Origin: Tangfeifania diversioriginum
GTDB lineage: Bacteria > Bacteroidota > Bacteroidia > Bacteroidales > Prolixibacteraceae
Length of the DNA: 64,000 bases
Direction of reading: 5' to 3'
Assembly (NCBI RefSeq): GCF_900141875.1
Contig: NZ_FQZE01000003.1
Coordinates: forward strand, 175,608 to 239,607
How positions within the stretch are numbered: the first letter of the stretch is position 1; every line of letters begins with the position of its first letter. Below the pieces are notes generated by a model. That model did no database searches. It was not told the DNA's origin and saw nothing but the letters and a program-made list of their open reading frames with translations. This document shows positions 43,870-61,731 of this stretch, one piece after another. The position numbers were made by a program, and so were the translations under genes.

Positions 43870-43874
43870 CCGGT

Positions 43875-45051: not shown

Positions 45052-46173
45052 TTGAACGAAAAACCGAAAATAACACTCAGCACTGCAACACACCACCAGC
45101 AAACGGTAATTACAGTCGAATTTTCTTACAACCGCGAACTGATTGACGCATTGAAAACCCGCACCAACGCTCGTTGGAGCGCCACCATGAACTGCTGGTA
45201 CATACCGAAAGACAACTTTGTATTGGGCGAATTTTTTAACGCCATGAAACCGCTGGCGTGGATTGATTATTCGGCGGTAAAAATTGTTGACGAGCCGGAA
45301 ATTCCCAAACCAAAAAAGCGCGATTATACTTACCGCCGTAATATTGAACTGCCGAAAGGATATTTAGAATTGCTTCATCAGAAACGATATAGCAACAGCA
45401 CAATAAAAACATACTCGGCTTATTTTAAGGATTTTATTCATTATTTCAGCGAATCGAATCTTGAAAAGATTACGAGTGAAGAAATAAACGACTACCTTTT
45501 AAATTTAATCAGGAAATGGGACATATCAATCAGCGAACAAAATCAACGAATAAATGCCATTAAGTTTTACTTCGAAAAAGTACTGCGAAAAGAAAAACAT
45601 GTTTATGAAATTGAAAGGCCCCGTAAAGAAAAATTGTTACCTGGAATATTAAGCAAAGAAGAGGTAGGAAAAATTTTAAATGCTACCAATAACCTGAAAC
45701 ACAAAACTATAATTTCTGTTATTTATTCGTGTGGATTACGGAGAAGTGAAGCCATAAATATTAAGATAACTGATGTGGATTCGAAACGGATGATGATAAA
45801 AATAAATGGTGCAAAAGGTAAAAAAGACCGTTATGTACAGTTATCAGAAGGATTATTAAACCTATTGCGTCAGTACTATAGTGAACATAAGCCAAAAATT
45901 TGGTTATTTGAAGGGCAGAAAGGAGGAAAATATGGAACAGAAAGTATATCGAAGTTGCTGAAGGCTGCAGCCTATAAAGCCGGAATTAAAAGGCGTGTTT
46001 ATCCGCACATGCTGAGGCACAGCTTTGCCACTCATCAGTTGGAACAGGGTGTGGATATAAGGTATATTCAGGCATGGCTCGGGCATGAGAGTTTGAAAAC
46101 GACTCAACGCTACACACATGTTTCAGAACATAATTTTAAAAACTTTAAAAATCCACTGGATGAACTACTTTAG
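45052..46173 (+). CDS. Tyrosine recombinase, presumed cassette integrase
   Basis: 373 residues from a TTG start; no in-frame ATG is near. Catalytic residues fit the family: R230 (CGLRRSEA), H319 and R322 (HMLRH), H345 (WLGHES) and nucleophile Y354 (RYTHVS). The C-terminus NPLDELL resembles the end of integron integrases (SPLDAL in IntI1). Residues 1-95 form an extra domain with the pattern RWSATMNCWYIP; then comes a SAM-like DNA-binding domain. The ~20-residue IntI-specific insert before the HxxR box is not evident. It points toward the cassettes, with attI-like DNA after its stop. Likely the enzyme that moves the cassettes downstream; a XerC-like housekeeping role is the alternative. Confidence 0.85.
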   Translation: MNEKPKITLSTATHHQQTVITVEFSYNRELIDALKTRTNARWSATMNCWYIPKDNFVLGEFFNAMKPLAWIDYSAVKIVDEPEIPKPKKRDYTYRRNIELPKGYLELLHQKRYSNSTIKTYSAYFKDFIHYFSESNLEKITSEEINDYLLNLIRKWDISISEQNQRINAIKFYFEKVLRKEKHVYEIERPRKEKLLPGILSKEEVGKILNATNNLKHKTIISVIYSCGLRRSEAINIKITDVDSKRMMIKINGAKGKKDRYVQLSEGLLNLLRQYYSEHKPKIWLFEGQKGGKYGTESISKLLKAAAYKAGIKRRVYPHMLRHSFATHQLEQGVDIRYIQAWLGHESLKTTQRYTHVSEHNFKNFKNPLDELL

Positions 46174-46260
46174 CAAGAAAGTTGGGTTACACACCCTAAA
46201 AAGCATTGTATCCCAACCAAACAATAGAGAAATAACCCAACTTGTTGGGTTGCACATACG
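46174..46260 (+). repeat. attI-like recombination region
   Basis: 87 bases between the recombinase stop and the first cassette. GTTGGGTT occurs at 46181-46188 and 46244-46251, with the inverse AACCCAAC at 46234-46241, forming a perfect hairpin with the second copy. CCCAACC also appears at 46212-46218. The region ends at ACATACG, where the cassette begins with TTAGCGCC. Repeats beside a GTT junction resemble integron attI sites with strong and weak integrase-binding repeats. No T-run follows, so it is not a typical terminator. Confidence 0.6.
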
Positions 46261-46293
46261 TTAGCGCCAAGCTAAAAATACATCCTGCATAAA

Positions 46294-47481
46294 ATGAACA
46301 TTGATAAAATCAAATATTACATTGACCAATATAAATTGAACTTCAAAACAGTTCATCGACAGGAGATTTATAAATGGCAAGCTGTAAAATGTTTTCAGGA
46401 GAACTGGGACATAAATGCTATTGATTTTACAGCAATGATTGATAAATCCTTATTGCAGACCAAAAACTTACTTGATTCGGGTAATTATTTCCCCAAAAGG
46501 ATGATAATCAATAATTCAAAAATTAACCCTGAATTAATTAAGCCCTTATTTATTGACTTATTTGATGAACAAAAAGATTTAATTGAAAGGATTAGACAAT
46601 TTCAAACCGACTTTTCAAAAATAAACAGTAAAAATTTTGCAGGTCGACTTGATTATCAAGACCCCAGAGCAATAATCGTTTATTTAGTACTTAGATATCC
46701 TGAAAGATATTTTTTATACAAATTCACGATGTTTAAGAATTTTGCAGAAAAGATTGATTATGACTACATTCCTGTTAAAGGTCGATTTGAAAACATTGGT
46801 CAATATCAAAAATTGTGTGTACATATCAAACATGAACTGATAAAAGACCAAGAAATTTTAAAACTTCATAAAGACCGTCTTACAAATGATTGTTTCTATG
46901 ATGAAAATTTAAATATACTGACACAAGACTTTATTTACGCCGTGGATAGATATTTAGATGTTGATGAACAAATCCCACGAACAAGATTTCGTATTATTGG
47001 AGAGGGTAGAATCTTAAGTCCTGAAAATTCTTCGCATGGGATAAATTTTAAAGGACGTATTGTTAATTATGAGCAGATAGAAAAAGAAAATAAACGAATT
47101 GGTGATTTAGGAGAAAAATGGGTGATTCAAAGAGAACGAAACAAATTAATTAATGCGGGATTACAGAACAAGATTGATAAAATAAAACATATCTCAGTAG
47201 AGGAAGGTGACGGGACAGGATTTGATATAAAATCTTTTGATGAAAAAGGGAATGAAATTTTTATTGAGGTAAAAACGACCACTGGAAATTTTAATCAAGC
47301 CTTTTATATTTCGAGAAATGAACTTGAGAGAAGTAAAAGTGATGGTGCTAAATACTATCTTTATAGAGTTTACGAGTTTAACGAGAAAGATAATACGGCA
47401 AGTTTGAAAATATTACAAGGTAATTTGGAGAACCTTTGTGATTTTCCAACACAATTTAAAGTAAAGATTAATGAAAAATAG
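46294..47481 (+). CDS. DUF3883 nuclease-like protein (cassette 1)
   Basis: 395 residues. The C-terminal ~110 residues match DUF3883: EGDGTGFDIKSFDEKGNEIFIEVKTT, where D, E and xK resemble a PD-(D/E)xK nuclease core. The N-terminal ~270 residues are helical and charged, with no family I recognise. Sole gene of cassette 1, starting 33 bases inside the cassette. DUF3883 proteins often occur with restriction or defence genes, so a DNA-targeting role is possible but not shown. Confidence 0.75.
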   Translation: MNIDKIKYYIDQYKLNFKTVHRQEIYKWQAVKCFQENWDINAIDFTAMIDKSLLQTKNLLDSGNYFPKRMIINNSKINPELIKPLFIDLFDEQKDLIERIRQFQTDFSKINSKNFAGRLDYQDPRAIIVYLVLRYPERYFLYKFTMFKNFAEKIDYDYIPVKGRFENIGQYQKLCVHIKHELIKDQEILKLHKDRLTNDCFYDENLNILTQDFIYAVDRYLDVDEQIPRTRFRIIGEGRILSPENSSHGINFKGRIVNYEQIEKENKRIGDLGEKWVIQRERNKLINAGLQNKIDKIKHISVEEGDGTGFDIKSFDEKGNEIFIEVKTTTGNFNQAFYISRNELERSKSDGAKYYLYRVYEFNEKDNTASLKILQGNLENLCDFPTQFKVKINEK

Positions 47482-47484
47482 CCA

Positions 47485-47621
47485 GGCGCTAACAATGTGT
47501 AAAATTAATCGCGGGTGAAGTGCGTAATTTCAGCCTCCTGCCCCGCTTCAACCCCGGTGTGTATGCGGACTGGAACGATGCCCGAAAACCGCGCCTAATC
47601 TTACACTTGAACGTTGTGTGG
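47485..47621 (+). repeat. attC-like site 1 (end of cassette 1)
   Basis: GGCGCTAAC (47485-47493) is the exact reverse complement of this cassette's start, GTTAGCGCC (46260-46268). Stem arms are GTGTAA-A-ATTA-AT-CGCGG and its partner ending in CTTACAC. Mismatched A at 47503 and 47508 face C on the right arm. The site ends at GTTGTGTGG (47613), the start of cassette 2. Nearly identical to attC-like site 7. Confidence 0.85.
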
Positions 47622-47659
47622 CATTTTAAAAAAGAGCTAAAAACTTAAATTTTTACATC

Positions 47660-47938
47660 ATGATAATAAAAACATTCGTTCATATTTTGCCCGACGGCAC
47701 AAAAGGAAAATTTACAATAAGAGAAAAAGAAATAAATGGAGAGCTGTTCTATTTTGCAAATGCAATTGACATTGAGAGTGAGTTTTATATAAAAAAAACT
47801 CCTAAAGAACGCAACAAATATCTTGGTGTTGAAATAACTAATGGAAATCAAAAAACAATTTATTATAGGAGTGCCGAGCGATTAGAAAATGACATAATCA
47901 ATAGGTATGGGAATGAAGACCTTGAAACTGAAATTTAA
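47660..47938 (+). CDS. Small protein of unknown function (cassette 2, gene 1)
   Basis: 92 residues, mixed alpha/beta by composition, no signal peptide or membrane segment. It begins IIKTFVHILPDGTKGKFTIREKEI and ends in an acidic tail. No family recognised. First of three genes in cassette 2, ten bases before a lipoprotein gene. Coding status is supported by clean spacing and an ATG about 45 bases inside the cassette, as in neighbours. Confidence 0.65.
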   Translation: MIIKTFVHILPDGTKGKFTIREKEINGELFYFANAIDIESEFYIKKTPKERNKYLGVEITNGNQKTIYYRSAERLENDIINRYGNEDLETEI

Positions 47939-47947
47939 AAAACAACT

Positions 47948-48760
47948 ATGAAAAATATAGCTATTTACTTCCTCATAATTCTAATATTTCAGGGTTGCAA
48001 TTATTCAGAATCGAATTCAAGAAAAAATTCAAATCAAGTTATTAATAATACAGATGACCTTATTAATAAAAATAAGAACAAGATTTTATTCCTTAATTTT
48101 TGGTCTGGCATAAACGAAAATGAATTTGAATCAATAAAAGATTTAGAAACAAAAAATGGAAATTTAAAGAACGGTGATTTTATTCTTATGCTCCCAGAAG
48201 GAAATTCTTCATTTAAGGAAGTTCCTTTTGCCGTTATCAGAAAAGACAAATCAATTTTGCTTCAATACAATGACGACCATTGGGTTAATCGAAAAGACAT
48301 AGACATACTGGAAACAGAAGACTATGTTTGGGGAAGTCAAGCTAAAACTCAAGGTCGTTTTTATGAGGAAATTGAAAATTACCTTATAAATACCTTTGAT
48401 GAAAAATATGAACGAATTGAACATGAATCAAACGTATGGAAAACAAAAATCAATGACGAAAATTATAAAACAATAACATTGGAAGTTAAGTATTGGTATT
48501 ATGCTAATAATGCCAAGACAAGAGAACCCTATGGAGAACATATTTTTGCGAATGGTGGAAAATTAAGATTTGAACCAGATGACAGAAAAAAAAGAGATAA
48601 AGTTGCATCAGGTGAATTTCAAATAATATATGAAATGCTTGATACATATTTAGATAGAGAGAGATTACGAGAAAAGAACGCAGAACAATATAAGCAAGAG
48701 AAAATTAAACAAGAAAATGAAACAAAAGATAAAATAAATGAAAATAAGAGTAAGTTATAA
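47948..48760 (+). CDS. Putative lipoprotein (cassette 2, gene 2)
   Basis: 270 residues with a lipobox: IAIYFLIILIFQGCNYSES. The body contains LEVKYWYYANNAKTREPYGEHIF and a long charged, probably coiled-coil C-terminus rich in Lys and Glu. I do not recognise the family. It lies between two small genes of the same cassette. Exported and membrane-anchored by prediction. Confidence 0.65.
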   Translation: MKNIAIYFLIILIFQGCNYSESNSRKNSNQVINNTDDLINKNKNKILFLNFWSGINENEFESIKDLETKNGNLKNGDFILMLPEGNSSFKEVPFAVIRKDKSILLQYNDDHWVNRKDIDILETEDYVWGSQAKTQGRFYEEIENYLINTFDEKYERIEHESNVWKTKINDENYKTITLEVKYWYYANNAKTREPYGEHIFANGGKLRFEPDDRKKRDKVASGEFQIIYEMLDTYLDRERLREKNAEQYKQEKIKQENETKDKINENKSKL

Positions 48761-48776
48761 TTTAAAATAGAATATT

Positions 48777-48959
48777 ATGAAAAAACGTGGTTTCATAATT
48801 CATAACTCCAAAAGATATGAATACGAGATTGATGAACAAGGATTCGTTTGGTTATTAATAGAACCTGGCAAAACAAATATTGGACAAATAAAACCTGTTA
48901 ATTCCCACAGCGACATTGAAAAAATATTGCATGAAATGTTAGATGGCGGCGGATATTAA
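48777..48959 (+). CDS. Small protein of unknown function (cassette 2, gene 3)
   Basis: 60 residues: basic N-terminus (KKRGFIIHNSKRYEYEIDE), a hydrophobic FVWLLIEPG core and an acidic end. It starts 16 bases after the lipoprotein gene and stops seven bases before the attC-like box. No family recognised. Confidence 0.55.
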   Translation: MKKRGFIIHNSKRYEYEIDEQGFVWLLIEPGKTNIGQIKPVNSHSDIEKILHEMLDGGGY

Positions 48960-48966
48960 AAAACGA

Positions 48967-49103
48967 CCACACAACAAAGTACATATTGCAGGGCGGGGTT
49001 CGGTGGTACGCCAACTGCGGATTCTCGTTTCGCAGTTCCGTGTCCTTCGGACAGGAACGCTCTTCGAAATCCGCCCCGACAACATGTACCAACCGTTACC
49101 TGC
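48967..49103 (+). repeat. attC-like site 2 (end of cassette 2)
   Basis: CCACACAAC (48967-48975) is the exact reverse complement of the cassette 2 start GTTGTGTGG. The arms GTACAT-A-TTG...GGGCGG and CCGCCCC...CAACATGTAC pair with the conserved A-C mismatch. An internal perfect hairpin loop sequence (GTCCTTCGGAC) lies in the middle. Ends at GTTACCTGC, the start of cassette 3. Confidence 0.83.
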
Positions 49104-49151
49104 TATTTTAAATGACAAACTATAAATCTATAATAAACAATAAATATTGAT

Positions 49152-49943
49152 ATGAAAACTACACTGTTTTTAACCCTTTTGTTTTTATCGACCGCAATAT
49201 TATACGGACAAGACATTAAAATTGGATTTAAAGATTCGATTCAATCAAAGGCACTAAATGAGACCAGAAAGTTTATCGTAAAGCTTCCAAGAGATTATAA
49301 TAACTCTGAAAAAACCTATCCTGTTCTTTATCGACTAGACGGAGATTTAGACATGTACACTGAAACCGTAGGAACAATCAATCGCTTGGTCTATTTGGAT
49401 GAATCAACACCAGACATGATAGTGGTTATGATTGAAAATACAAACAGGAATCGTGACATGATGCCTACAACAACAAGCTTTTTCGCATCAGTTCCTGGTG
49501 CTGACAATTTTAAAAATTTCATAGAAAATGAATTAGTTTCACATATAAATAGTACTTATAGGACAACAAATGAGAAACTCCTATGTGGACAATCTTTAAG
49601 TGCAATATTTACAATATATTATTTTTTGACAAGTCCGAACTCATTTGATTCATATATTGCTTGTAGTGGAGGATTTCCTGAATGTGAAGAATATTTCATT
49701 GACCTAACAAATGATTTTCTAAAAGGTGAGCAAATCAAGCCAACAAATATTTTTTTGACACACGGTATGACTGATTTTTTAGACCCAGAAGGAGTAATAA
49801 AGAAACAACTTATAGATTTTAGTCAACGGATTAAATCAAAAGAAAATATAGTTTGCAAATTAAAAATCTATGAGGACGAGGGACATGTTCCTTTTCAGAG
49901 TTTATATCACGGATTGAGATTTATATATGCATCGAAAAAATAG
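49152..49943 (+). CDS. Secreted esterase of the IroE/esterase-D-like alpha/beta fold (cassette 3)
   Basis: 263 residues with a signal peptide (KTTLFLTLLFLSTAILYGQ). The fold resembles siderophore and S-formylglutathione esterases: KLPRDYNNSEKTYPVLYRLDGD, the nucleophile elbow LLCGQSLSAIFTIY, and a catalytic His in EDEGHVPFQSLYHGLRF. Sole gene of cassette 3. Substrate unknown; secreted or periplasmic. Starts 56 bases inside the cassette. Confidence 0.8.
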   Translation: MKTTLFLTLLFLSTAILYGQDIKIGFKDSIQSKALNETRKFIVKLPRDYNNSEKTYPVLYRLDGDLDMYTETVGTINRLVYLDESTPDMIVVMIENTNRNRDMMPTTTSFFASVPGADNFKNFIENELVSHINSTYRTTNEKLLCGQSLSAIFTIYYFLTSPNSFDSYIACSGGFPECEEYFIDLTNDFLKGEQIKPTNIFLTHGMTDFLDPEGVIKKQLIDFSQRIKSKENIVCKLKIYEDEGHVPFQSLYHGLRFIYASKK

Positions 49944-49950
49944 AAAAACA

Positions 49951-50084
49951 GCAGGTAACAATGTATAAAAATAATAGCCGAGATAGTAGTAAATTCAAGG
50001 GTTGTAGCCCGCTTCAACTTCCATGTAATTTGACAGAAAAGTGCCACGCAGTCGGCTACTATTCTTATACTAACCGTTGGCGGT
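49951..50084 (+). repeat. attC-like site 3 (end of cassette 3)
   Basis: GCAGGTAAC (49951-49959) exactly complements the cassette 3 start GTTACCTGC. The arms GTATAA-A-AATA-A-TAGCCG and CGGCTACTATTCTTATAC pair throughout except at the two conserved A-C positions. A GCCCGCTTCAA motif lies in the loop region, shared with sites 1, 4 and 7. Ends at GTTGGCGGT. Confidence 0.87.
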
Positions 50085-50137
50085 AATTGTAAGAGACGAC
50101 ACGGCATATAGATAAAATTGAATAGATAAAACAATCA

Positions 50138-50845
50138 ATGAAAACACCAATAATCATAAGAGACAAGATTTTTAAATATAAAAAGGATGCTCTTTTTTAT
50201 TTTAAGTCGATACTTAACTCATATGAATTCGGAGAAACTTTGAATGCAGAAGATACTGCAGATGTAACAGCATTGCTACTTGAAAATGAAACAAGAAGAG
50301 ATAAAATTGGTTGCGGAATAAAGGAAATTCGGATTGGTAAAGTGCAATTTGGAACGAAATGCTTCCAAATTATAAGGTATGATTTAACAATAGAAAATTT
50401 TTCATATGTATATTGCATAAATGGAGACCTTAAACCTTTTACAAAATTTAGCAATGCTTGCAGAAATGCGATACATAAAGATTTACATGATGTAAAACAA
50501 AAATATTTTGACCAGAATTCTGTTAAAGGAAAAGTAAAATGTCAGGAGACTGGTATATTAAGTTCGTGGACAGAATTGAATGTTGACCATAGACAACCAA
50601 ATACCTTATCAATAATTATTGACAGGTTCATTGAACTTCATAAAGTTGATTTAAAAAACATTGAGTATGAAACGGACAAAGACAATAAATCATTATTAGC
50701 CGATAAAGACTTGGAAAGCAAATTCAGAGATTACCATATGGAAAAAGCTAACCTGAGAATTGTGAGAAAGGAGAATAATAAAGGGCGTTCTTATCAAGGG
50801 AGGGTGAAAAATCAAAAAAAAGATTTACGAATTGATAGGACATAA
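50138..50845 (+). CDS. DUF3223 (DCL-family) protein, HNH-like (cassette 4)
   Basis: 235 residues. The central part carries a Cys-rich, His-containing pattern typical of the DCL/DUF3223 family: VKCQETGILSSWTELNVDHRQP, then a phenylalanine-rich helix and FRDYHMEKANLRIVRKENN. The spacing resembles an HNH nuclease finger (C, DH, N), so nuclease activity is possible. Sole gene of cassette 4. The N-terminal ~100 residues (FYFKSILNSYEFGETL) belong to the same family. Confidence 0.7.
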   Translation: MKTPIIIRDKIFKYKKDALFYFKSILNSYEFGETLNAEDTADVTALLLENETRRDKIGCGIKEIRIGKVQFGTKCFQIIRYDLTIENFSYVYCINGDLKPFTKFSNACRNAIHKDLHDVKQKYFDQNSVKGKVKCQETGILSSWTELNVDHRQPNTLSIIIDRFIELHKVDLKNIEYETDKDNKSLLADKDLESKFRDYHMEKANLRIVRKENNKGRSYQGRVKNQKKDLRIDRT

Positions 50846-50853
50846 AAACAACA

Positions 50854-50993
50854 TACCGCCAACATTTTATAAATTTAACTGTGGGGTCAGTGCTTAATTT
50901 CAGCCTTTCAGCCCGCTTCAATTTTGTACGTATGCGGACTGGAAACTGCCACGCAAACCACAGTATAAACTTATAAGTGAAACGTTATGTGGC
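50854..50993 (+). repeat. attC-like site 4 (end of cassette 4)
   Basis: TACCGCCAAC (50854-50863) is the exact reverse complement of the cassette 4 start GTTGGCGGTA (10 of 10). Arms TTATAA-A-TTTA...CTGTGG and CCACAG...TAAACTTATAA pair with the conserved A-C mismatch. Ends at GTTATGTGGC, the start of cassette 5. Confidence 0.86.
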
Positions 50994-51021
50994 ATTTTAA
51001 AAGACAACAATCTGACACGGT

Positions 51022-51660
51022 ATGAGAATAATAAAAAACACGATTACAATTCTTGCTGAAATAATAGTCTTGATTCTTTCGACATTATGGTATATTAAGA
51101 CTTATGAATACGAACCATTAATTGCAATGATTATTAGTGGTGTTGGACTGTTAACGAGTTTGATTTCTAAATGGTTTGTAAGACCCAAAATAGTATTACA
51201 TCATAAAAAAACTGATTGGGGTAGACTTACCAAAGGTTATACTTCAAATAATCCTCAAATAATAAGACTTGGCGTTGACATACCAAATCAATATTGGGAA
51301 CTTTTCTGGAATCATATTTTGGAAATAAGGAATAATTCATCACAGACTGCTTATTCTATTGATATAAAATACATAAATACACCTCCCAAAACTTATATAA
51401 ATGGAGAAATTGGAAAAATAGAACCTTTATTACCAAACGAAAGGAGAGATTTTAAAATTAAAATTGTTCAAAATACGACAGGAACTCATTTAGAAGCAGA
51501 CGACTACCTAAAAACAAATATTAAGACTTTAATGGAGGATGCCAAAATTATAGTAAAATATGAAGATGAAAGCGGAACGAAATTTTATACTGAATACAAT
51601 TGGCTTACAGACACGAACAAATTTAAACTATTCAATAATTTTAAAAACAAAACAACATGA
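51022..51660 (+). CDS. Membrane-anchored protein of unknown function (cassette 5, gene 1)
   Basis: 212 residues. Two N-terminal transmembrane segments (ITILAEIIVLILSTLWYI and PLIAMIISGVGLLTSLIS) are followed by a soluble beta-rich domain. That domain includes LEIRNNSSQTAYSIDIKYI and NERRDFKIKIV, which suggest an Ig-like sandwich. No family recognised. It overlaps the next gene by four bases, first of a translationally coupled chain in one cassette. Confidence 0.65.
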   Translation: MRIIKNTITILAEIIVLILSTLWYIKTYEYEPLIAMIISGVGLLTSLISKWFVRPKIVLHHKKTDWGRLTKGYTSNNPQIIRLGVDIPNQYWELFWNHILEIRNNSSQTAYSIDIKYINTPPKTYINGEIGKIEPLLPNERRDFKIKIVQNTTGTHLEADDYLKTNIKTLMEDAKIIVKYEDESGTKFYTEYNWLTDTNKFKLFNNFKNKTT

Positions 51661-51890
51661 ATAAAGGTGGAAAAATTGCGGTTACAATTCTGTTAATTGT
51701 AGGATTTTTTATTATCGGAATATTATTATCGGCAGCAGGTGCAAGTAAAACATTTACAGGCTTATTAGCATTAGGATTATTCTTCGGAATACGAGAAATG
51801 TGGAAGAAACCGAAAATTGATGAATCGACTGAAATTAAACTTGACAAAACCCAAAATAATGATAGTGAAAACAACATAACAAAACAATGA
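51657..51890 (+). CDS. Small membrane protein (cassette 5, gene 2)
   Basis: 77 residues with two hydrophobic helices ([34 protein letters not shown]) and a charged C-terminal tail. ATGA overlaps join it to the genes before and after, so it is almost certainly translated. No family recognised. Confidence 0.65.
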
Positions 51891-52486
51891 TTCCTAACCT
51901 TTATAATATTTTGCAAGTTGACCGATATGCTTCTAAAGAAGAAATAAAGAAAGCATATAGGAAACTTGCTTTACAATGGCATCCTGATAAGAATAAAAGT
52001 CCAAAAGCTCATGATAAATTCATTGAAATAAACGAGGCTTATCTAATTTTATCAGATGACGAAGTAAGAAATAAATACAACATTGAATATGATTTATATT
52101 TTGCTGCAAAAACAGAAATAAAAGAAGAACAAATTTTTGGTGAATATCAATCCACTAACAGTAATGGTTCATACAAACAAAAAGCAAGTTACAAAGACCC
52201 TGATTTAAATAATTGGACTTCAACAGCAAATAAACAAGCAGAAAAATATGCGTCAATGTCATTTTCTGATTTTACTAAACTAATTGGCGAAATCATAGTT
52301 GAAACAGGTAAACAAGGAGGCACGGCAGTTATATACGCAATTTCAGGAGTAGTTGGAGCTTCGGCAATTTTTTCTTTTATTTCAGGTATCAACTACGGAG
52401 ATATTCCTCAAATAGTTTTGTCACTAATTTTTTTAGGGCTTTCAATATTGGGTTTTAGTTTCACTTCTAAACGTTATAAATCATGA
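51887..52486 (+). CDS. Membrane DnaJ-domain protein (cassette 5, gene 3)
   Basis: 199 residues. An N-terminal J domain has the HPD motif ([16 protein letters not shown]) and would stimulate a DnaK ATPase. The C-terminus has two transmembrane helices ([34 protein letters not shown]). No G/F region or zinc fingers, so it is a class III J protein, probably recruiting Hsp70 to the membrane partners encoded in the same cassette (inference). ATGA overlaps on both sides. Confidence 0.85.
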
Positions 52487-53508: not shown

Positions 53509-53514
53509 AGAATC

Positions 53515-53652
53515 ATGGAAACAATTGTAACTCAACAAGCTGGTTTAGGTTTAATCGGTTGGATTATTGTATTTTTAATTATTGGAGCAATTCCAATGAT
53601 TTTTAAAAAAGATAAAGATAAAAAAGATGACCAAAATACTGATAATCAATAA
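53515..53652 (+). CDS. Very small membrane protein (cassette 5, gene 5)
   Basis: A 45-codon frame: a short N-terminus, one hydrophobic helix (LIGWIIVFLIIGAIPMIF) and a highly charged KKDKDKKDD tail, the typical make-up of small single-pass proteins. It starts six bases after the lipoprotein gene and ends five bases before the attC-like box. Too short for many gene finders. Confidence 0.55.
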   Translation: METIVTQQAGLGLIGWIIVFLIIGAIPMIFKKDKDKKDDQNTDNQ

Positions 53653-53657
53653 AAAAC

Positions 53658-53792
53658 GCCACATAACACGCGGTATAGTTAATTGCCGGTGCAGTGGGTA
53701 TTCGAGCGGCACAGCTCGAATCAAAGTTCGTGGTAACTTGACAGGAAAGTGCTTCGAAATCGGCAACTAACCATACCGCCACCGTTGGCGTT
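53658..53792 (+). repeat. attC-like site 5 (end of cassette 5)
   Basis: GCCACATAAC (53658-53667) is the exact reverse complement of the cassette 5 start GTTATGTGGC. Arms GCGGTAT-A-GTTA-A-TTGCCG and CGGCAACTAACCATACCGC pair at 17 of 19 positions; both exceptions are the conserved A-C. Ends at GTTGGCGTT, the start of cassette 6. Confidence 0.88.
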
Positions 53793-53936
53793 CATTGTGA
53801 AAGACTCAGCAATACAATATTATTTTGAAACAAAACTTACAAAAAATAGTAATAAATAAACAAGTTCAGACCCACTATAAGTGAGGTTTAATTATATGAT
53901 TTAAATTATCTTTTAAAAACCAAAAACTCAAACAAA

Positions 53937-56900
53937 ATGAAAACTTGTTATGACCCAACTAAATCTGACTTTAAAAAGCTTTTTATCTTAGTCTTTTGCA
54001 TTTCATTTTTTACATTTTATACCTCTGCAAAAGAAAAAACATTTAGTGTTCATTCTGACACTTATGTTGCATCTGATACTCCGGGAACTAATTATTGCAA
54101 TGAACAATCTGTAGCTATTGGCACTCATCAGGACATTATTGGATTAATTTATTTTTTTATTGGAATTGATGATATTCCTTCTGGTTCAACTATAGATAAT
54201 GCAACATTAAAATTATATTGTACTACGATAACAGAAAATAGTAATGTAGCAATTAGTAGAATTTCAGAAGGATGGGGCGAGTGCAGTGTAAACTGGAATA
54301 ATAGACCGGGTTCAGATTCTCCGGTTAAATTATCTAAACCCCAATCAACGAATCAGTGGTGGGAGATAGATGTTACAGATATTGTAAAGGAGTGGGTAAC
54401 TTTTGGAGAATCAAACAATGGATTTTATTTAGAGAAAAGTAACTCAGGGATTATAATGTTTAATTCTAGTGAAAATTCTTCTAACAAGCCACGTTTAGAA
54501 ATAAATTACACAGAAGGTACATTTTCTGCCAATGGAAATGTTACTTCAACAACGGATGGTTACGGAGTTCAATCGGTGAGAATGGATTTTAGCAGAGTAA
54601 GTGGGTCAGGAAGTATTCCAAATTCAGTTTATACAAGTGCAACAGGTGATTGGGAACAAGATGGATTCGATGTAAACACAACATACAGAGTAACTCCAGT
54701 TCTTGAGAACCATAATTTTTCTCCAACTTATAAAAATTTCTCAAGTAGCGGTGATAATGTTTCAAATCTAAATTTCACAACTGCAACAAGTTATTCCGTT
54801 ACTATCAATTCAAACCCTAGTGGGGCAGAAATTCATCTTTCAAGCCCAGAAGGTACAATTATTGGGACAACACCTAGTACAATAGATAATATAGAAGGTA
54901 ATATTTCTATTTATCTTACAAAAGATGGTTATGAACCTTTAGAATATTCGCTCACTTCAGAAGATGCAAATCAAACAATTACAATTGAACTTACTGAAAT
55001 TACCTCCTTAGTATTTACTCCTCCATTTCAAAATGCAATAACAGACCATGAAGTTAATGAACTTTCGCATTGGGGTCTGAGATTACTTTTAACAGCACCT
55101 TCTAATTTTGATGCATCAACGGGAAAAATAAATCATAGCTCACTTCTCGAAATGTTTTTAGTTGGCGAAAGTGCATTTTATACAAAAAACTCAATTATTT
55201 GGAGTTTCCAAGTGCCAGAAACGGGAACATATAGGGTTCAATTTGATGGAAGTTTAAATGGAGGTATTTATGGTGGTGGATTTGGTGGTCTAAATACTTA
55301 TAAACATTGGTTATATCTTTCATCAAAAATTACTACCGATATTTATGATGATTCATATATTGGTAGAAGTTATTCAGACTTATTAAATACTTTAGATGAA
55401 GAATTACCAAGTGGATTCAATTGGGTTTCATATAATTCATTTTTAGAAATTGGGGAAGCAATTGCTAAAATATACAAAGTTGGTTGGATAGTTAAACTTG
55501 TTAAAGCAGCGGATTTGGCCGATTTAATTAATTCAGTTAAAGAACTTATCAGCCCAGAGATTCATTTCAATAATGAAAGTTTTAATGGCGATAAACTTGA
55601 ATATGAAGTTACATTACAAGCAAATAAAGATTATTATTTCGAGTTTGGTGTTAATGGATATACTTTGGCTGGAATAAGTAGTTATGACGGAGGTTTTGTT
55701 GGTGCAGAAGAAATTACAGCATCACTCAACAAAGTAACGATAACAAAAATTAATGAATTAGAAACACCCCAAATACAAATTTCACCTAAAAGTTTTATTG
55801 AACTTTCCAATGTTGAAAAAGGCAACTATTCTGACAACCCAAATATTTTCAAAATTACAAACGTTGGTGGAGGTCAGTTGAACGGCGAAGCAAATGTTGA
55901 ATATGGTCCTTTTAGTATTATAGGAAGTGCAAACTATTCTCTTAACAGTAACGAATCAAAATATGTATCATTAAGATTTTCGCCTTCTGAAGTTGGTAAA
56001 TATACGGGTAAAATAGTATTTACAGGAGGAAAGCAAAAGGAGAGATATATTTATGCAAGCTGCATTGCGACTAATCCTGACTTAGTAGTTACTCCAATAG
56101 AAGATTACAATTTTGGAAATGTAACAGTAGGGGACAAAAAAATTTCAGAAACATTCACGGTAATTAATTCAGGAAGCGGAAATTTAATTGGTGAGGCAAT
56201 AGTAGACGAACCTTTTTATATTACTGATGGTAGTTATAATCTTGGTCATGGCGAATCAAAAATAATTTCAGTCAAATTCGAGCCAAATCAGGAAGGAACA
56301 GTTTCAAAAACAATTACATTTAGTGGTCAAGGAACAATTGAACGAAAAATAAATGGTACAGGCATTTATGAAACAGGGTCTTTAAAAGTAAACATTTCCC
56401 CGAACGAGGTTGTAAGTGTCGGCGCACAATGGAATGTCGATGGTGGTGCTTGGAAAAATAGCGGAGCTACTGTAAGCGGATTAAGTGTTGGAAACCATAC
56501 TGTTTCTTTCAAAGACATTTCGGGGTGGTCAACTCCTTCAAATAAAACGGTTTCAATCAGCTCTAACCAGACCACATCTACTACGGCAACATACACACAG
56601 CAGACAGGCTCACTATCTGTAACTATCTCGCCAAATGATGCAATAAATGCAGGTGCACAATGGAATGTCGATGATGGAGCTTGGAAAAATAGCGGAGCTA
56701 CTGTAAGCGGATTAAGTGTTGGAAACCATACTGTTTCTTTCAAAGACATTTCGGGGTGGTCAACTCCTTCAAATAAAACGGTTTCAATCAGCTCTAACCA
56801 GACCGCATCTACTACGGCAACATACACACAGCAGACAGGCTCACTATCTGTAACTATCTCGCCAAATGATGCAATAAATGCAGGTGCACAATGGAATGTC

Positions 56901-57935
56901 GATGATGGAGCTTGGAAAAATAGCGGAGCTACAGTAAACGGATTAGGTGTTGGTAACCACATCGTTTCGTTCAAAAGTATTTCTGGCTGGAACACTCCTT
57001 CTAACAAAACTGTTACAATCAATTCCAATCAAACCACATCTACAACTGGAACTTATACTGAGAATAATTCTGAGAATGAGCTTATTTGGGAAGACGAATT
57101 TGAAAATTATACTTCAGGAACATTCCCCAGTAATTGGGTGGCAGACGCAAATGCGACAAATACATCTAAAAACTATACTGATAATAGTATCCAAAAAGAA
57201 GGAGCAAATTCATTAAAATTATTTGGAACTCTAGGCGGTTGTTGGGGAGCATTAGCATATCATAGCTTATCAGTTTCCCCACCTTACTATATTTCAATTG
57301 ATGTAAAAAATGGAACAGAGCAGCTATCCGGCTGTCACCCAGACCGAGCAAGCATTGCCTTAAGAAAAGGCACGTCTTGGTCAAACCCTGCTAGGTCTTT
57401 AGTTGATTTTAAGGGTGATGGCAAAATATACGCGAATGGCAGTGATTTGCTTGAATCTTATTCCACAAATACATGGATTAACGTAATAGTAAAATATGAA
57501 TTACCTACAAGTAATCAAGCAAAAACAACATTCTGGGTAAACAATAACCTCCTAGGTGAATATTTTTCATCGACAATAGCTGAAGAGAATGAATTAGATA
57601 ATTTACAATTAGCTGTTCAGGAAGGTACAGCGTGGTTTGATAATGTTAAAATCTATAAGTCACTTTCTATTCCTACTGCCGTCAATAGTATTGTCTATGA
57701 GAGTAAAATAAGAATTTACCCAAATCCAATCAAAGACCAAGTTACAATATCAATTGACGACCCGAATTTAATTAATTCTGTTGTTAAAATTATTAATTCT
57801 TTGGGGAGCATTATTAGTGTTCATAAACTTGACTCTTATGAAACAACAATTAATACTTCAAGTTTATTGTCAGGGTTTTACATTATCCAAATCCAAAATA
57901 GCAGCTTCATTTATAATGAAAAAATAACAAAATGA
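53937..57935 (+). CDS. Large secreted multidomain protein with T9SS sorting domain (cassette 6)
   Basis: 1332 residues. A signal peptide is followed by a DNRLRE domain (residues ~35-200: DTYVASDTPGTNY, WWEIDVTDIVKEWV). A PEGA domain follows (~285-350: VTINSNPSGAEIHLSS), then a carbohydrate-binding-like region and two HYDIN/ASPM-like Ig domains (NFGNVTVGDKKISETFTVINSG). Three nearly identical 77-residue repeats lie at 813-1043, then a jelly-roll region. The C-terminal T9SS type A signal begins IRIYPNPIKDQVTISI. Likely surface-displayed; ligand unknown. The ~140 bases before its start belong to the cassette and show no gene. Confidence 0.8.
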   Translation: MKTCYDPTKSDFKKLFILVFCISFFTFYTSAKEKTFSVHSDTYVASDTPGTNYCNEQSVAIGTHQDIIGLIYFFIGIDDIPSGSTIDNATLKLYCTTITENSNVAISRISEGWGECSVNWNNRPGSDSPVKLSKPQSTNQWWEIDVTDIVKEWVTFGESNNGFYLEKSNSGIIMFNSSENSSNKPRLEINYTEGTFSANGNVTSTTDGYGVQSVRMDFSRVSGSGSIPNSVYTSATGDWEQDGFDVNTTYRVTPVLENHNFSPTYKNFSSSGDNVSNLNFTTATSYSVTINSNPSGAEIHLSSPEGTIIGTTPSTIDNIEGNISIYLTKDGYEPLEYSLTSEDANQTITIELTEITSLVFTPPFQNAITDHEVNELSHWGLRLLLTAPSNFDASTGKINHSSLLEMFLVGESAFYTKNSIIWSFQVPETGTYRVQFDGSLNGGIYGGGFGGLNTYKHWLYLSSKITTDIYDDSYIGRSYSDLLNTLDEELPSGFNWVSYNSFLEIGEAIAKIYKVGWIVKLVKAADLADLINSVKELISPEIHFNNESFNGDKLEYEVTLQANKDYYFEFGVNGYTLAGISSYDGGFVGAEEITASLNKVTITKINELETPQIQISPKSFIELSNVEKGNYSDNPNIFKITNVGGGQLNGEANVEYGPFSIIGSANYSLNSNESKYVSLRFSPSEVGKYTGKIVFTGGKQKERYIYASCIATNPDLVVTPIEDYNFGNVTVGDKKISETFTVINSGSGNLIGEAIVDEPFYITDGSYNLGHGESKIISVKFEPNQEGTVSKTITFSGQGTIERKINGTGIYETGSLKVNISPNEVVSVGAQWNVDGGAWKNSGATVSGLSVGNHTVSFKDISGWSTPSNKTVSISSNQTTSTTATYTQQTGSLSVTISPNDAINAGAQWNVDDGAWKNSGATVSGLSVGNHTVSFKDISGWSTPSNKTVSISSNQTASTTATYTQQTGSLSVTISPNDAINAGAQWNVDDGAWKNSGATVNGLGVGNHIVSFKSISGWNTPSNKTVTINSNQTTSTTGTYTENNSENELIWEDEFENYTSGTFPSNWVADANATNTSKNYTDNSIQKEGANSLKLFGTLGGCWGALAYHSLSVSPPYYISIDVKNGTEQLSGCHPDRASIALRKGTSWSNPARSLVDFKGDGKIYANGSDLLESYSTNTWINVIVKYELPTSNQAKTTFWVNNNLLGEYFSSTIAEENELDNLQLAVQEGTAWFDNVKIYKSLSIPTAVNSIVYESKIRIYPNPIKDQVTISIDDPNLINSVVKIINSLGSIISVHKLDSYETTINTSSLLSGFYIIQIQNSSFIYNEKITK
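56373..57065 (+). repeat. Three tandem 231-bp repeats inside the cassette 6 gene
   Basis: Copies start at 56373, 56604 and 56835. Copies 1 and 2 are almost identical over their second half, and copies 2 and 3 over their first half. Each encodes a 77-residue PEGA-like module (GAQWNVDGGAWKNSGATVSGL). Unit number can change by recombination, which would vary surface-protein length. Confidence 0.9.
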
Positions 57936-58006
57936 CCAATTCTAATTTAGAGCAGTAATTTTGAATAAATGTATTGGTAATTAATGACAAATAAAGAAAA
58001 CAACGA

Positions 58007-58141
58007 AACGCCAACATTGTGCAAATTTCATCCCGGCTATGGCGGTAAATTAATGTATTTCATAACGTTAAATATTTTGTGCTATGTTGAAAATAAATCA
58101 AACGCATCCGGGCCGAAAACTTGCACCAACCGTTACCAACC
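58007..58141 (+). repeat. attC-like site 6 (end of cassette 6)
   Basis: AACGCCAAC (58007-58015) exactly complements the cassette 6 start GTTGGCGTT. Arms GTGCAA-A-TTT...CCCGG and CCGGG...AAACTTGCAC pair with the conserved A-C mismatch. The central loop differs in sequence from the other sites and is AT-rich. Ends at GTTACCAACC. Confidence 0.83.
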
Positions 58142-58236
58142 ATAGAAATAAAGATACTCACGAAGACAAAAAATAAGATTGCAGTTCCATGTATTGTGAA
58201 ACTTTTATTTATATTTGTCGTTGTAAAATATAAGAT

Positions 58237-58575
58237 TTGGAATTACTAAGAAAACATAAGCTGATTAAGCTCAAACAAAAGAATCGTGGGAACAAGAAAT
58301 TGACTTCTGCGATTGACATGTTGATTTCAGATATTGAAAGTGCCCAATGGACTAAAAAAACAGAAATTATAGAAACACGACCTGATGCAGATTGTGTACA
58401 CAGCGATGGTTTTTACTTTTTTGATATAAACATTCATCGTACAATGATTTTGATAGTCTTTGAAGATAATGAAGCAACAGTCGTCTGGACTGGTTCGCAT
58501 GATGAGTATGACAAGACTTTTAAAGGAAATAAAAGCACGATAAAAAAATGGTTACGTAAACAAAATTTGATTTAA
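58237..58575 (+). CDS. higB: HigB-type toxin (cassette 7)
   Basis: 112 residues from a TTG start. HigB-family RelE-fold mRNA interferase features: YFFDINIHRTMILIVFEDNEATVVW, then GSHDEYDKTFKGNKSTIKKWLR. Cleaves mRNA on the ribosome in known members. The toxin gene comes first, one base before the antitoxin gene's start, as in higBA operons. About 100 bases from the cassette start, leaving room for a promoter. Confidence 0.85.
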   Translation: MELLRKHKLIKLKQKNRGNKKLTSAIDMLISDIESAQWTKKTEIIETRPDADCVHSDGFYFFDINIHRTMILIVFEDNEATVVWTGSHDEYDKTFKGNKSTIKKWLRKQNLI

Positions 58576-58576
58576 A

Positions 58577-59137
58577 ATGGATAGATTTTCAATACAAAAC
58601 ATACAGAGATTAAATTCATTAGAGAGTGAATTGGATTTCGAAAAAGCATCATCACTGTTTCTAAAATTACGTGTGCTTGAAAAAGAGGATGAATCATATA
58701 AACCAATCCGCAAACACCTTCGCAACCTTATAAAAGATTATGAAGAAAAAAATTGGGGTGATGAAAATTCCATAACAGATAATCAAATTAAAGACAGCGA
58801 TTTAGCTGAAACATTAGTGCAAGCTGAAAATGACTTCTACGAAAAGAGAAAAAAACGAATTAAAGCAAAATTGAAAGAGGCAGGGTTAACCCAAAATGAT
58901 TTAGCAAAGATTTTAGGTCATCGGAAAAGCTATATGTCGGAATTGATTAATGGATTACGCCCTTTTTCAAAAGAGGATTTAATCGTTATAAACAGACTAT
59001 TTAAAATAAAATTGGAGGATTTAATTCCAACGTTTATAAAGCAAGACAGAGCAACACATATCAAAAGGACTTTAGAATCATTGTCTCATAATAAGATAAG
59101 ACTAACTAAAAAAGATTTTGATTTACAAATGGTTTGA
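58577..59137 (+). CDS. higA: HigA-type antitoxin (cassette 7)
   Basis: 186 residues. The C-terminal half has an XRE helix-turn-helix: RIKAKLKEAGLTQNDLAKILGHRKSYMSELINGLRPFSKEDL. The N-terminal ~95 residues are helical and acidic and would bind HigB. Such antitoxins repress their own promoter. Directly follows the toxin gene. Confidence 0.85.
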   Translation: MDRFSIQNIQRLNSLESELDFEKASSLFLKLRVLEKEDESYKPIRKHLRNLIKDYEEKNWGDENSITDNQIKDSDLAETLVQAENDFYEKRKKRIKAKLKEAGLTQNDLAKILGHRKSYMSELINGLRPFSKEDLIVINRLFKIKLEDLIPTFIKQDRATHIKRTLESLSHNKIRLTKKDFDLQMV

Positions 59138-59156
59138 TGATGAAAATTCTAACTAC

Positions 59157-59294
59157 GGTTGGTAACAATGTGTAAAATTAATCGCGGGTAAAGTGCTAAT
59201 TTTCAACTCCCTGCCCCGCTTCAACTTCGGTGTGTATGCGGACTGGAACAATGCACGAAAACCGCGCCTAATCTTACACGTAAACGTTAGGGGC
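59157..59294 (+). repeat. attC-like site 7 (end of cassette 7)
   Basis: GGTTGGTAAC (59157-59166) is the exact reverse complement of the cassette 7 start GTTACCAACC. The arms are the same as in site 1 (GTGTAA-A-ATTA-AT-CGCGG). The middle shares the CCCCGCTTCAAC and GTATGCGGACTGGAAC segments with site 1. Ends at GTTAGGGGC. Confidence 0.88.
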
Positions 59295-59332
59295 AAGCAA
59301 AAAGAGCATCCTGCAACAATGATAAAATCCAA

Positions 59333-60850
59333 ATGATGAAAACAATTTTAGAATTATCAAATACAGAAGCGAAAGAGTATTTTCTTAAGCAAGAAAGCTA
59401 TTGCAATATTGACTTGCCAAAATATTTTGAGTTTCAACCATTGTTGAATGCTCTTGCCCAAAATGCGAATATTGGAAATATAGCTTTAGGTAATGCTAAA
59501 AAGTTTGACAATATCAACTATAAATTTCTGACAAACAAAGACGGGAAGTTTGCTTGGCGACCATTGCAATTAATACATCCTGCAATCTACGTGAATCTTG
59601 TCAATAAAATTACAAAGGAATATAATTGGAATATTATTGTTGAGCGTTTTAGAAAATTTCAGAGTAATGAAAATATAAAATGTTATAGTATTCCTATTGC
59701 ATCTTCAGGAGATAATAAATCTCAAAAAGGGAAAAGTATTTTTAACTGGTGGCAACAAATAGAACAACAATCTTTAGAATTAGCATTGGATTATGACTGT
59801 TTTATGAATACAGATATAGCTGATTGTTATTCTTCAATTTATACTCACTCTATACCTTGGGCTTTACACGGAGAAAAAGTAATAAAAACTGATTTTCTAT
59901 TTCCAAGTACACCACGAAAAAAGTTTTTAGGCAATGATATTGATACGACGATTCAGAGTATGCAATATTCCCAAACCAACGGAATACCTCAAGGAAGTGT
60001 ATTAATGGACTTTATTGCAGAAATGATTTTAGGGTATGCAGATGCTAAGCTGACTTATAAAATTAAAAATTATAACAGGAAAGAAGTTAAATATAAGATT
60101 AGCGACTATACAATTCTAAGATACCGTGATGATTATAGAATATTTGCCACGAATCAAGAAACATTAGTAAAAATTGCAAAATTGCTTACGGAAACTTTAT
60201 TTGAGTTAAACTTAAAACTTAACTCTCAAAAGACTTTTATCTCAGATAATATTGTTAGGGATGTTATAAAGCCCGATAAATCATATTGGAATGAGGCAAA
60301 ACAAGGTGAGAAAACATTGCAAAAACACTTGTTTTTAATTCACTCTTTAGCTGAAAAGCATCCCAATTCTGGGAGTTTAGCAACTGCATTGACAAAGTTT
60401 CTTGAAGAAAGAGTTTATCCATTAAAGCTGTTTAAGGAAGAGAATTCTAAAGTGATAGTAAGTATCTTGGTAGATATCGCATATAAAAATCCAAGAACTT
60501 ATCCTGTTGTAACAGCTATTTTGAGTACAATTTTATCGCTGGAAATAAATAGTAAAACTGTGGTTGAGATATTTAACTCTATCGAAAAAAGATTTGATAA
60601 GATACCAAATGTTGGACATCTTCAAGTTTGGTTACAGCGATTAACTATTAAAGCAGACAGGGATAAAGATTATCCTGAGACTCTTTGTCAAAAAGTAATA
60701 AATACTGATACAGCAATTTGGAATATAGATTGGCTGAATCATCAAAACATTAAAGATTTATTCATAAATACATCAATAATCAATGACACTGAAATTGACG
60801 AAATGCAACAAATTATCGAGCCAAATGAGATTAGTGTATTTGGATATTAA
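59333..60850 (+). CDS. Reverse transcriptase of the defence/unknown-group type (cassette 8)
   Basis: 505 residues. RT motifs: a first catalytic Asp in MNTDIADCYSSIYTHSIPWALHG (D161), GIPQGSVLMDFIAEM, and YRDD (Y264-D267) in LRYRDDYRIFA instead of the YADD of group II introns. LNLKLNSQKTF follows. About 200 residues after the RT domain are helical with no maturase or endonuclease signature. This fits stand-alone antiviral RTs (DRT/UG groups); the exact group cannot be assigned by eye. No retron ncRNA was recognised in the short upstream region. Sole gene of cassette 8. Confidence 0.8.
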   Translation: MMKTILELSNTEAKEYFLKQESYCNIDLPKYFEFQPLLNALAQNANIGNIALGNAKKFDNINYKFLTNKDGKFAWRPLQLIHPAIYVNLVNKITKEYNWNIIVERFRKFQSNENIKCYSIPIASSGDNKSQKGKSIFNWWQQIEQQSLELALDYDCFMNTDIADCYSSIYTHSIPWALHGEKVIKTDFLFPSTPRKKFLGNDIDTTIQSMQYSQTNGIPQGSVLMDFIAEMILGYADAKLTYKIKNYNRKEVKYKISDYTILRYRDDYRIFATNQETLVKIAKLLTETLFELNLKLNSQKTFISDNIVRDVIKPDKSYWNEAKQGEKTLQKHLFLIHSLAEKHPNSGSLATALTKFLEERVYPLKLFKEENSKVIVSILVDIAYKNPRTYPVVTAILSTILSLEINSKTVVEIFNSIEKRFDKIPNVGHLQVWLQRLTIKADRDKDYPETLCQKVINTDTAIWNIDWLNHQNIKDLFINTSIINDTEIDEMQQIIEPNEISVFGY

Positions 60851-60860
60851 GAGAATGCCA

Positions 60861-60996
60861 GCCCCTAACATTTTGTATAAGTAATGGCAGGCAAAGTGCT
60901 AAATATCAAGGTTTGTAGCCCGCTCAAACTACATAGCGTTTTGACAGGAAAGTACCACGCAATCTGCCACTACTCATACAATTTACCGTTAGCCTT
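60861..60996 (+). repeat. attC-like site 8 (end of cassette 8)
   Basis: GCCCCTAAC (60861-60869) exactly complements the cassette 8 start GTTAGGGGC. Arms TTGTAT-A-AGTA-A-TGGCAG and CTGCCACTACTCATACAA pair except at the two conserved A-C positions. The loop shares TTGTAGCCCGCT and TTGACAGGAAAGT segments with site 3. Ends at GTTAGCCTT. Confidence 0.87.
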
Positions 60997-61054
60997 AATT
61001 TTGAAATTTCGCAAATATGTTACAACTTTGTAATTACATTTTAAAAAATTAGTT

Positions 61055-61300
61055 ATGGAAATTTCAGTTATAAAAATCGGAAATTCAAAAGGGATTAGGT
61101 TGAGTAAAACTCTACTTGACAGATACAATATCAAAGACACCGTTGATTTAATAATGGATAAAGGGCAGATTATTTTAAAACCAATTGCGAAACCAAGAAA
61201 AGGATGGGAAAAGGCATTTGAAAAAATGGCTAAAAGTGGAGATGACAATTTATTATTTGACGATGTATTTGACGATGAAAATCTTGAAGAATGGAAATAA
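61055..61300 (+). CDS. mazE: MazE-like AbrB-fold antitoxin (cassette 9)
   Basis: 81 residues. The AbrB/MazE swapped-hairpin start is clear: EISVIKIGNSKGIRLSKTLLDRYNI, followed by VDLIMDKGQIILKP and an acidic C-terminus (DDNLLFDDVFDDENLEEW) that binds the toxin. Overlaps the MazF frame by ten bases. Confidence 0.9.
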   Translation: MEISVIKIGNSKGIRLSKTLLDRYNIKDTVDLIMDKGQIILKPIAKPRKGWEKAFEKMAKSGDDNLLFDDVFDDENLEEWK

Positions 61301-61613
61301 AACAATATCAAATCATTTTGGTTAATCTCAACCCGACCATTGGAAGCGAAAAAAAAAAACCAGACCTTGTGTTGTTATTTCGCCTGATGAAATGAATAAA
61401 TATTTGCGGACTGTTGTAATTACACCAATGACAACAAGTTCAAAAAAATATCCAACAAGAGTAAAAATTAGACATGACAATAAAATAGGCTGGATTGTTT
61501 TAGACCAAATCAGGACAATTGACAAACAAAGAATAATCAGGCTTTTTGGAGAATTACAAGATTCTGAAATCCAAGAATTAGAATCGGTTTTGAAGGAAAC
61601 TTATATTGACTAA
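61291..61613 (+). pseudogene. MazF/PemK-type toxin with frameshift in an A11 tract (cassette 9)
   Basis: The start reads MEIKQYQIILVNLNPTIGSE and the rest TRPCVVISPDEMNKYLRTVVITPM...RVKIRHDNKIGWIVLDQIRTIDKQR, a full MazF-fold RNase. The two parts are in different frames, split by eleven A residues at 61349-61359. Twelve (or nine) would restore the frame. Either the toxin is inactive, a base is missing in the assembly, or polymerase slippage on the A-run makes some functional toxin. The MazE partner is intact. Confidence 0.8.
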
Positions 61614-61626
61614 AAAGAAAAAAACT

Positions 61627-61731
61627 AAGGCTAATAAATAGGACTCTGAGCGGCGCGTAGCGCCCAGCGATGAGTCCATGTTGAACCCGCCTGAGTGACA
61701 TAGTCGGGCAGGCTACAACCCGGTTTATTTT
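61627..61731 (+). repeat. Broken attC-like end of cassette 9 and hairpin DNA
   Basis: AAGGCTAAT (61627-61635) complements the cassette 9 start GTTAGCCTT at eight of nine bases (last C changed to T). What follows does not form the usual arms. Instead there is a strong hairpin, GGACTC...GGCGC with GCGCC...GAGTCC (61641-61677), and a second imperfect one around 61687-61719. The array seems to be cut here by another sequence. Confidence 0.6.

Follow-up and report, generated by a model that had tools for sequence, protein, structure and literature searches.

A 64,000-nucleotide stretch of the Tangfeifania diversioriginum genome (NZ_FQZE01000003.1, positions 175,608 to 239,607; contig C52 of the 4.78 Mb genome), called here the window, raises the question whether gene cassettes can be moved in the manner of integrons by a recombinase that is not an integron integrase. 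In this stretch the + strand carries a tyrosine recombinase gene, behind it an attI-like site, and then a row of nine units with eight palindromes (Table 1). The original prediction, made from the sequence alone, took this arrangement for an integron-like platform. We consider it probable, with a likelihood of roughly 0.8, that the locus is an integron-like cassette array, composed of nine arm-matched units and an attI-like site, and that its recombinase, devoid of the extra domain (I2) of IntI, likely moves the units as circles.

Arms and folding of the attC-like sites

All eight related palindromes, each running from an AAC box to a GTT box, were located in the window; they are imperfect and measure 122-126 bp, not the 130-140 bp estimated at first. 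No Rfam family matched the window. Beyond AAC and GTT, the two outer arms of a site show no pairing with one another; a pairing matrix shows instead that the opening arm of each unit pairs with that unit's own closing arm, the trace to be expected from circles carrying a single intact site. The match extends 6-7 bp beyond AAC/GTT in the seven window units lying between two sites, and 6 bp in unit 1, counted from the attI-like GTT; the ends of unit 9 match by eye, with AAC changed to AAT.

The same relation holds in 237 intervals between neighbouring sites drawn from 22 genomes or loci. Arms of at least 5 bp were found in 163 of these intervals, in 8 of 299 comparisons within sites and in 875 of 55,932 other pairings, and 21 of the 22 genomes or loci contain at least one unit of this kind. 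In the first unit set the matches are 6 or 7 bp long. Past them comes a mismatch, often a top-strand A against C (T against G on the bottom strand), after which pairing resumes at three or more of the next four positions in 165/169 units, a value obtained as the best of four alignments and with no control.

The inner stem covaries: 12 of its 18 pairs changed on both sides and 97.2% of cells are paired, values reached by none of 500 shuffles. Both boxes are present in 151 of 156 sites. The R-box of integrons follows the consensus RYYYAAC/GTTRRRY; GTTRRRY is fitted by only 16 of 169 units, and the base after GTT is A or G in 168 of them. When the sites were folded with DNA parameters, joined as they would be in a circle, the bottom strand was the more stable one in 154 of 157 (mean -34.4 vs -29.6), and in 145 of 157 when they were folded as present in the array. 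Control pieces from cassette bodies showed the opposite lean, with the bottom strand lower in 43/169. The predicted hairpins contain on average 4.5 G.T pairs on the bottom strand and 0.94 on the top strand. As a possible counterpart of the extrahelical bases of integron sites, 61 of the 157 predicted bottom-strand folds have a bulged T (position 17 or 18).

Recurrence of units at different places

The evidence for movement comes entirely from comparison of genomes. Among 125 verified units, 15 pairs are alike across at least 90% of both members. In one genome (G020) three copies of a 605-bp unit, at separate places, are 100% identical over their full length (bases 1-605) and lie between flanks of 25-50% likeness; unit copies end exactly at G|TT. 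The 486-bp body of this unit has relatives in three other genomes (G029, G026 and G008), the nearest being 98% identical. Palindromes scattered without cassette-precise gain or loss, which the original prediction regarded as fatal to an integron reading, are thus not what we saw: identical whole units stand in differing neighbourhoods.

Draconibacterium orientale and D. aestuarii share a 1,768-bp body that is identical to the base and is the first one after attI in one species and in the other follows the first site detected. The site core behind this body differs between the two species (58% identity), therefore core and body can separate. In the comparison of G020 with G026 the bodies are 84% alike and the cores 52-55%, and in that of G020 with G008 the values are 80% and 82-94%, respectively. 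Conversely, unlike bodies precede the two cores in 90 of the 96 core pairs with a likeness of 97% or more. An exchange of hairpin tips through a second strand exchange would produce such mixing of cores and bodies, of which there are few cases.

The recombinase and its attI-like site

The recombinase exceeds the cut-off of NF040815, the XerA/integron integrase family (231.3 bits vs 220), and falls below that of the integron integrase family TIGR02249 (202 bits; cut-off 265). Its alignment to IntI4 contains a 43-residue jump at the position of I2. Between the first catalytic motif and HxLRH, 19 of the 21 recombinases measured have 92-93 residues and seven of the nine IntI of the phylum have 134-136; in the remaining rows the pattern hit a different place, or yielded 150 in the case of L191. 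The family score, the gap and the motif spacing all agree with the earlier view that this enzyme differs from canonical IntI. A tree of 42 rows separates 22 recombinases from 11 IntI with support of 100/100; as nine rows belonging to neither group may fall within, the deep branching is open and rooting was by midpoint, the tree is silent on which came first.

An N-terminal extra domain of about 95 residues precedes the SAM-like and catalytic domains. In a model of the whole protein (pLDDT 82.5, pTM 0.54) the nearest PDB folds are IntI4 and XerA. The N-terminal 80 or so residues are modelled as a small mixed domain (pLDDT 84, pTM 0.68), whose best fold matches, weak ones, are the HARP domain of SMARCAL1 and the N-terminal domain of XPB, both of which read distorted or forked DNA. 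This match may reflect just a common arrangement; speculatively, the extra domain might perform the shape-reading that I2 performs in IntI. Named relatives of the recombinase are found in Mariniphaga, Maribellus and Draconibacterium.

As in integrons, an attI-like site lies beside the recombinase gene. At 16 of 18 loci a GTT matching the far arm of the first cassette is found 48-127 nt past the stop codon, the exceptions being L076 (379 nt) and L086 (5166 nt); at L147 a second GTT matches equally well. The DNA before this GTT contains inverted and direct boxes, GTTGGGTT/AACCCAAC in the window and ATAACAACA elsewhere. In the window, L080, L081, L082 and L084 the letters preceding GTT are similar (CACATAC, CACGTAC or CATGTAC), the distance from the stop codon is equal, and sequence likeness breaks off at GTT.

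Association of the recombinase with the sites

A model built from the eight window sites gave 22 matches in the whole genome of this strain, namely the eight sites and 14 elsewhere. Related genomes were surveyed in a set of 61, this one and 60 relatives; each species is represented by a single genome, often a draft, and assemblies are broken by arrays. Sites occur in 49 of the 61. The recombinase is matched (E<=1e-40) in 27 of these 49 and in none of the 12 genomes lacking sites (Fisher p 5.8e-4), and the median number of sites per genome is 11.5 with a recombinase bearing the N-terminal domain vs 1.5 with no match.

To count enzymes together with arrays, we took recombinases including the N-terminal domain and followed by at least 1 kb of contig, which gave 22 loci; seven others, whose contigs end within 0.6 kb (L146, L148, L151, L152, L154, L157, L160), were left out. 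Sites lie downstream on the same strand at 19 of the 22, and none lies upstream in the DNA fetched. These 19 are the window, L069, L076, L080-L082, L084-L087, L109, L144, L145, L147, L149, L153, L156, L158 with L122, and L161, where the recombinase gene holds one stop. Of four loci at which the match covered the catalytic part alone, two, L150 and L163, also have a same-strand site downstream. Palindromes never found near this recombinase were the other outcome that the original prediction considered damaging; relatives of the enzyme are in fact encoded immediately before arrays and in the same orientation.

When a second site model (R2), built from 150 sites, was run on a phylum-wide sample of 296 genomes, scoring just 12 candidates per genome, 123 of them had matches; a search of Bacteroidota with a new model had been proposed at the outset. 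Thirty-six of the matched genomes, picked for many sites, yielded 18 matches of this recombinase kind, and 11 of these loci, all outside the order, were fetched with the site list in view. All 11 have same-strand sites downstream and none upstream. The recombinases are 36-61% identical, two of them matched from about residue 100 on only. At 7 of the 11, the first site detected is matched by a GTT situated 34-112 nt past the stop codon. Same-unit arms occur outside the order in 31 of 40 intervals vs 3 of 54 within sites and 2.5% of other pairings. The layout recurs across the phylum Bacteroidota, and the system likely shuffles its units. The original prediction had been silent on the same-unit arms, on the spread through the phylum and on the relation to rAID arrays described below.

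Proposed mechanism and alternative explanations

We propose that in a circle the two arms, each made of GTT and 6-7 variable bases with about four more pairs, would be brought together with the palindromic core, and that arms and core would fold as a single long bottom-strand hairpin. The recombinase would cut at G|TT and join the hairpin to the attI-like site or to another site. Top-strand A.C mismatches would turn into T.G pairs on the bottom strand and give the strand choice. Replication would complete the joining as in integrons, for which a finishing step of this kind is described in the passage cited (PMC8946536).

Several observations weigh against an array moved by this recombinase. 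Recombination is deduced, none having been observed, and the capture of cassettes is held to need I2 in the part of PMC7790495 that we draw on. There is no downstream site at L155 (8.8 kb; the next site is 12.5 kb away), L079 (1.1 kb) or the viral contig L092 (10 kb); among the loci where the catalytic part alone was matched, L159 has no site and L162 has sites just on the other strand. At E<=1e-40, 22 of the 49 site-bearing genomes give no recombinase match, and neither do 6 of the 20 genomes with at least ten sites. R2-type sites lie near an intact canonical IntI at L191, and a site lies near a broken IntI at L204. Finally, 74 of the 237 intervals show no matching arms; missed sites, decay and insertions are likely behind these.

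The alternative that survives best, although we regard it as rather unlikely, is a fossil array, which such a system once built and which is now inert in this strain; this would be compatible with our explanation for the family as a whole. The tenth site is a mere arm ending in AAGGCTAAT (about 61627-61634), therefore the core of unit 9 was lost, and among the arrays fetched no near-identical copies of units 1-9 are found, only a 76% relative of unit 9. On the other hand, the frame of the recombinase is intact, and the attI-like site still matches unit 1. Activity today, in this strain, is what we infer.

It is improbable that the neighbouring recombinase is a bystander and that the units are moved in trans by a canonical IntI encoded elsewhere in the cell. 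The genome does encode an IntI-like protein over the family cut-off (357 bits) on contig C42, which may give some help in trans in this strain, and in one genome (G065) the intact IntI of L191 has four strong sites at a distance of about 4 kb, a recombinase of the new kind being present elsewhere (L192). Yet IntI over the cut-off occurs in just 4 of the 61 genomes, while sites occur in 49, and four IntI regions fetched (L168-L171, 11-20 kb, the region of this genome spanning 20 kb) contain no site. Three genomes with 41-58 sites each (G029, G020, G031) have this recombinase and no IntI over the cut-off. Among the 36 site-rich genomes of the phylum seven have such an IntI, and of 11 IntI loci inspected, strong sites are near L191, a single weak match is at L187 and none is at the other nine.

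A chance neighbourhood of ordinary dispersed repeats, either terminators or mobile palindromes, can be set aside almost completely as an account of the palindromes: some copies do stand alone or paired elsewhere in this genome, but same-unit ends match while other pairings do not, which already contradicts it, all sites are on one strand in 65 of 66 loci counted (with one weak opposite-strand match overlapping a stronger one in L072 left out), and copies have their ends precisely at G|TT.

Relation to known systems

The array of the window shares with integrons, large sedentary chromosomal arrays included, a recombinase by an attI-like site, tandem co-oriented units separated by imperfect AAC...GTT palindromes, ends that pair within each unit as in a circle, better folding of the bottom strand, precise movement of single cassettes, and defence and toxin-antitoxin genes among the cargo. 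It differs from them in a recombinase that lacks I2, carries an N-terminal extra domain and is encoded upstream of, and co-oriented with, the units. Its arms also exceed the boxes of integrons, which have 7 bases. As the domain defining IntI is absent, the system is not filed here as an integron; as to the mode of working, the integron-like platform of the original prediction stands.

Full-length relatives of the recombinase are also found on plasmids of Bacteroides, Parabacteroides, Phocaeicola and Chryseobacterium. The one from Chryseobacterium is accompanied by one site, and those of B. ovatus and P. distasonis (L205, L206) head arrays of rAID-like immunity genes; the R2 model finds no site in L205-L207. 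Same-unit ends of at least 7 bases occur in 9 of 14 intervals at L205 and 4 of 8 at L206, vs 6 of 182 and 3 of 56 other pairings, some of the non-matching intervals being false site calls. The rAID (recombinase-associated acquired interbacterial defence) arrays of gut Bacteroidales are the nearest relative described so far. Our system resembles them in its full-length tyrosine recombinase (45% and 47% identity to those of the two rAID-like arrays), co-oriented genes and same-unit pairing arms. Conserved intergenic motifs are present here too, but those of the rAID-like arrays escape the R2 model. In both, the recombinase lies upstream of co-oriented short genes, one window gene (1332 aa) not being short. 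In contrast, rAID-like sites are about 50 bp long by eye and end in CATTA, whereas those of the window end in GTT at 122-126 bp, and rAID genes are mostly immunity genes, whereas the window cargo is mixed. The genes of rAID arrays are predicted orphan immunity genes; the family matches of the window cargo include no immunity family, several cargo proteins being without any match. With cargo of this kind, the system is not filed as rAID either.

With Xer and archaeal XerA the recombinase shares the sequence family NF040815 and the fold; Xer acts on a dif site and moves no cassettes. The SE elements (strand-biased circularising integrative elements) resemble it in having tyrosine recombinases and one-strand circles; in the part of PMC9345347 cited here they have neither attC/attI-like inverted repeats at the target nor cassette arrays. 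We found no description of an I2-less cassette array in the open-licence literature.

The system is best seen as a sister platform spanning integrons and rAID. A bolder interpretation, which we put forward tentatively and hold to be somewhat less probable than its negation, is that of a second, independently evolved integron: a Bacteroidota-wide platform whose I2-less Y-recombinases would read single-stranded hairpins via an XPB/HARP-like N-terminal domain, with a second strand exchange swapping hairpin tips and with rAID as a specialised branch.

I2 is said to be absent from all other proteins and intermediates to be lacking (PMC7790495). A cassette system without I2 would be a natural test of whether, and by what means, folded single strands can be recombined without this domain. 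In Bacteroidetes, searches based on IntI at first yielded only integrases lacking cassettes; a single complete integron, that of Salinibacter, was added later (PMC9024848), and the origin of rAID arrays is called an area of active research in the relevant lines of PMC12247911. Our finding bears on both gaps, the scarcity of integrons in Bacteroidetes and the rise of rAID arrays.

Other features of the region

Table 1. Coordinates of the features discussed, given in the window unless a locus is named
Feature	Position	Strand	Remark
Tyrosine recombinase, 373 aa	45052-46173	+	TTG start, frame intact
attI-like site	46174-46262	+	GTTGGGTT/AACCCAAC boxes; end ...CACATAC|GTT, 87 nt past stop codon
attI-like half-site GTT	46260	+	
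Unit 1: NOV_C-domain protein (46294-47481)	46261-47613	+	family match
attC-like site s2	47491-47615	+	
Unit 2: small proteins	47614-49095	+	no family match over cut-off
attC-like site s3	48973-49097	+	
Unit 3: putative esterase (49152-49943)	49096-50076	+	
attC-like site s4	49957-50078	+	
Unit 4: DUF3223 protein (50138-50845)	50077-50984	+	PADLOC HamC2 match 2e-39
attC-like site s5	50861-50986	+	
Unit 5: several genes, one DnaJ-domain (51887-52486)	50985-53784	+	
attC-like site s6	53665-53786	+	
Unit 6: 1332-aa protein (53937-57935)	53785-58132	+	CBM96 and C-terminal secretion sorting domain
attC-like site s7	58013-58134	+	
Unit 7: HigB-like toxin and HTH antitoxin	58133-59286	+	
attC-like site s8	59164-59288	+	
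Unit 8: AbiP2-type defence reverse transcriptase (59333-60850)	59287-60988	+	E 7e-193
attC-like site s9	60867-60990	+	
Unit 9: antitoxin-like protein and PemK/MazF-like toxin	60989-61634	+	weak MazE match (antitoxin); 3' arm ends AAGGCTAAT
IntI-like protein of the same genome	L168:9596-10534 (G000:C42:69596-70534)	-	IntI-specific domain
Cassettes with identical 1,768-bp bodies	L084:11210-13098 and L087:16460-18345		

The secreted protein of unit 6 contains three 231-bp direct repeats (100, 90 and 76%) at 56373-57065. An arsenic-type gene group lies directly upstream of the recombinase gene (42638-44906) and comprises a reductase-like gene, a methyltransferase and an Acr3-like transporter; the arsenic roles were assigned by eye, and the methyltransferase domain was checked. 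Past the array, at 63635-63720, there is a site-like inverted repeat, perhaps a relic, which neither site model finds. Just beyond the decayed end of the array, a short frame on the - strand (61987-62181) looks by eye like a fragment of a group II intron reverse transcriptase.

Mobile elements were seen exactly at the AAC edge of sites in L073, L074, L077 and L122-L124, and they seem to target this end of the site. Those of G026 are about 2.5 kb long, encode a different tyrosine recombinase and are partly in tandem. One copy each of the same mobile-element end motif is present in L102 and L112.

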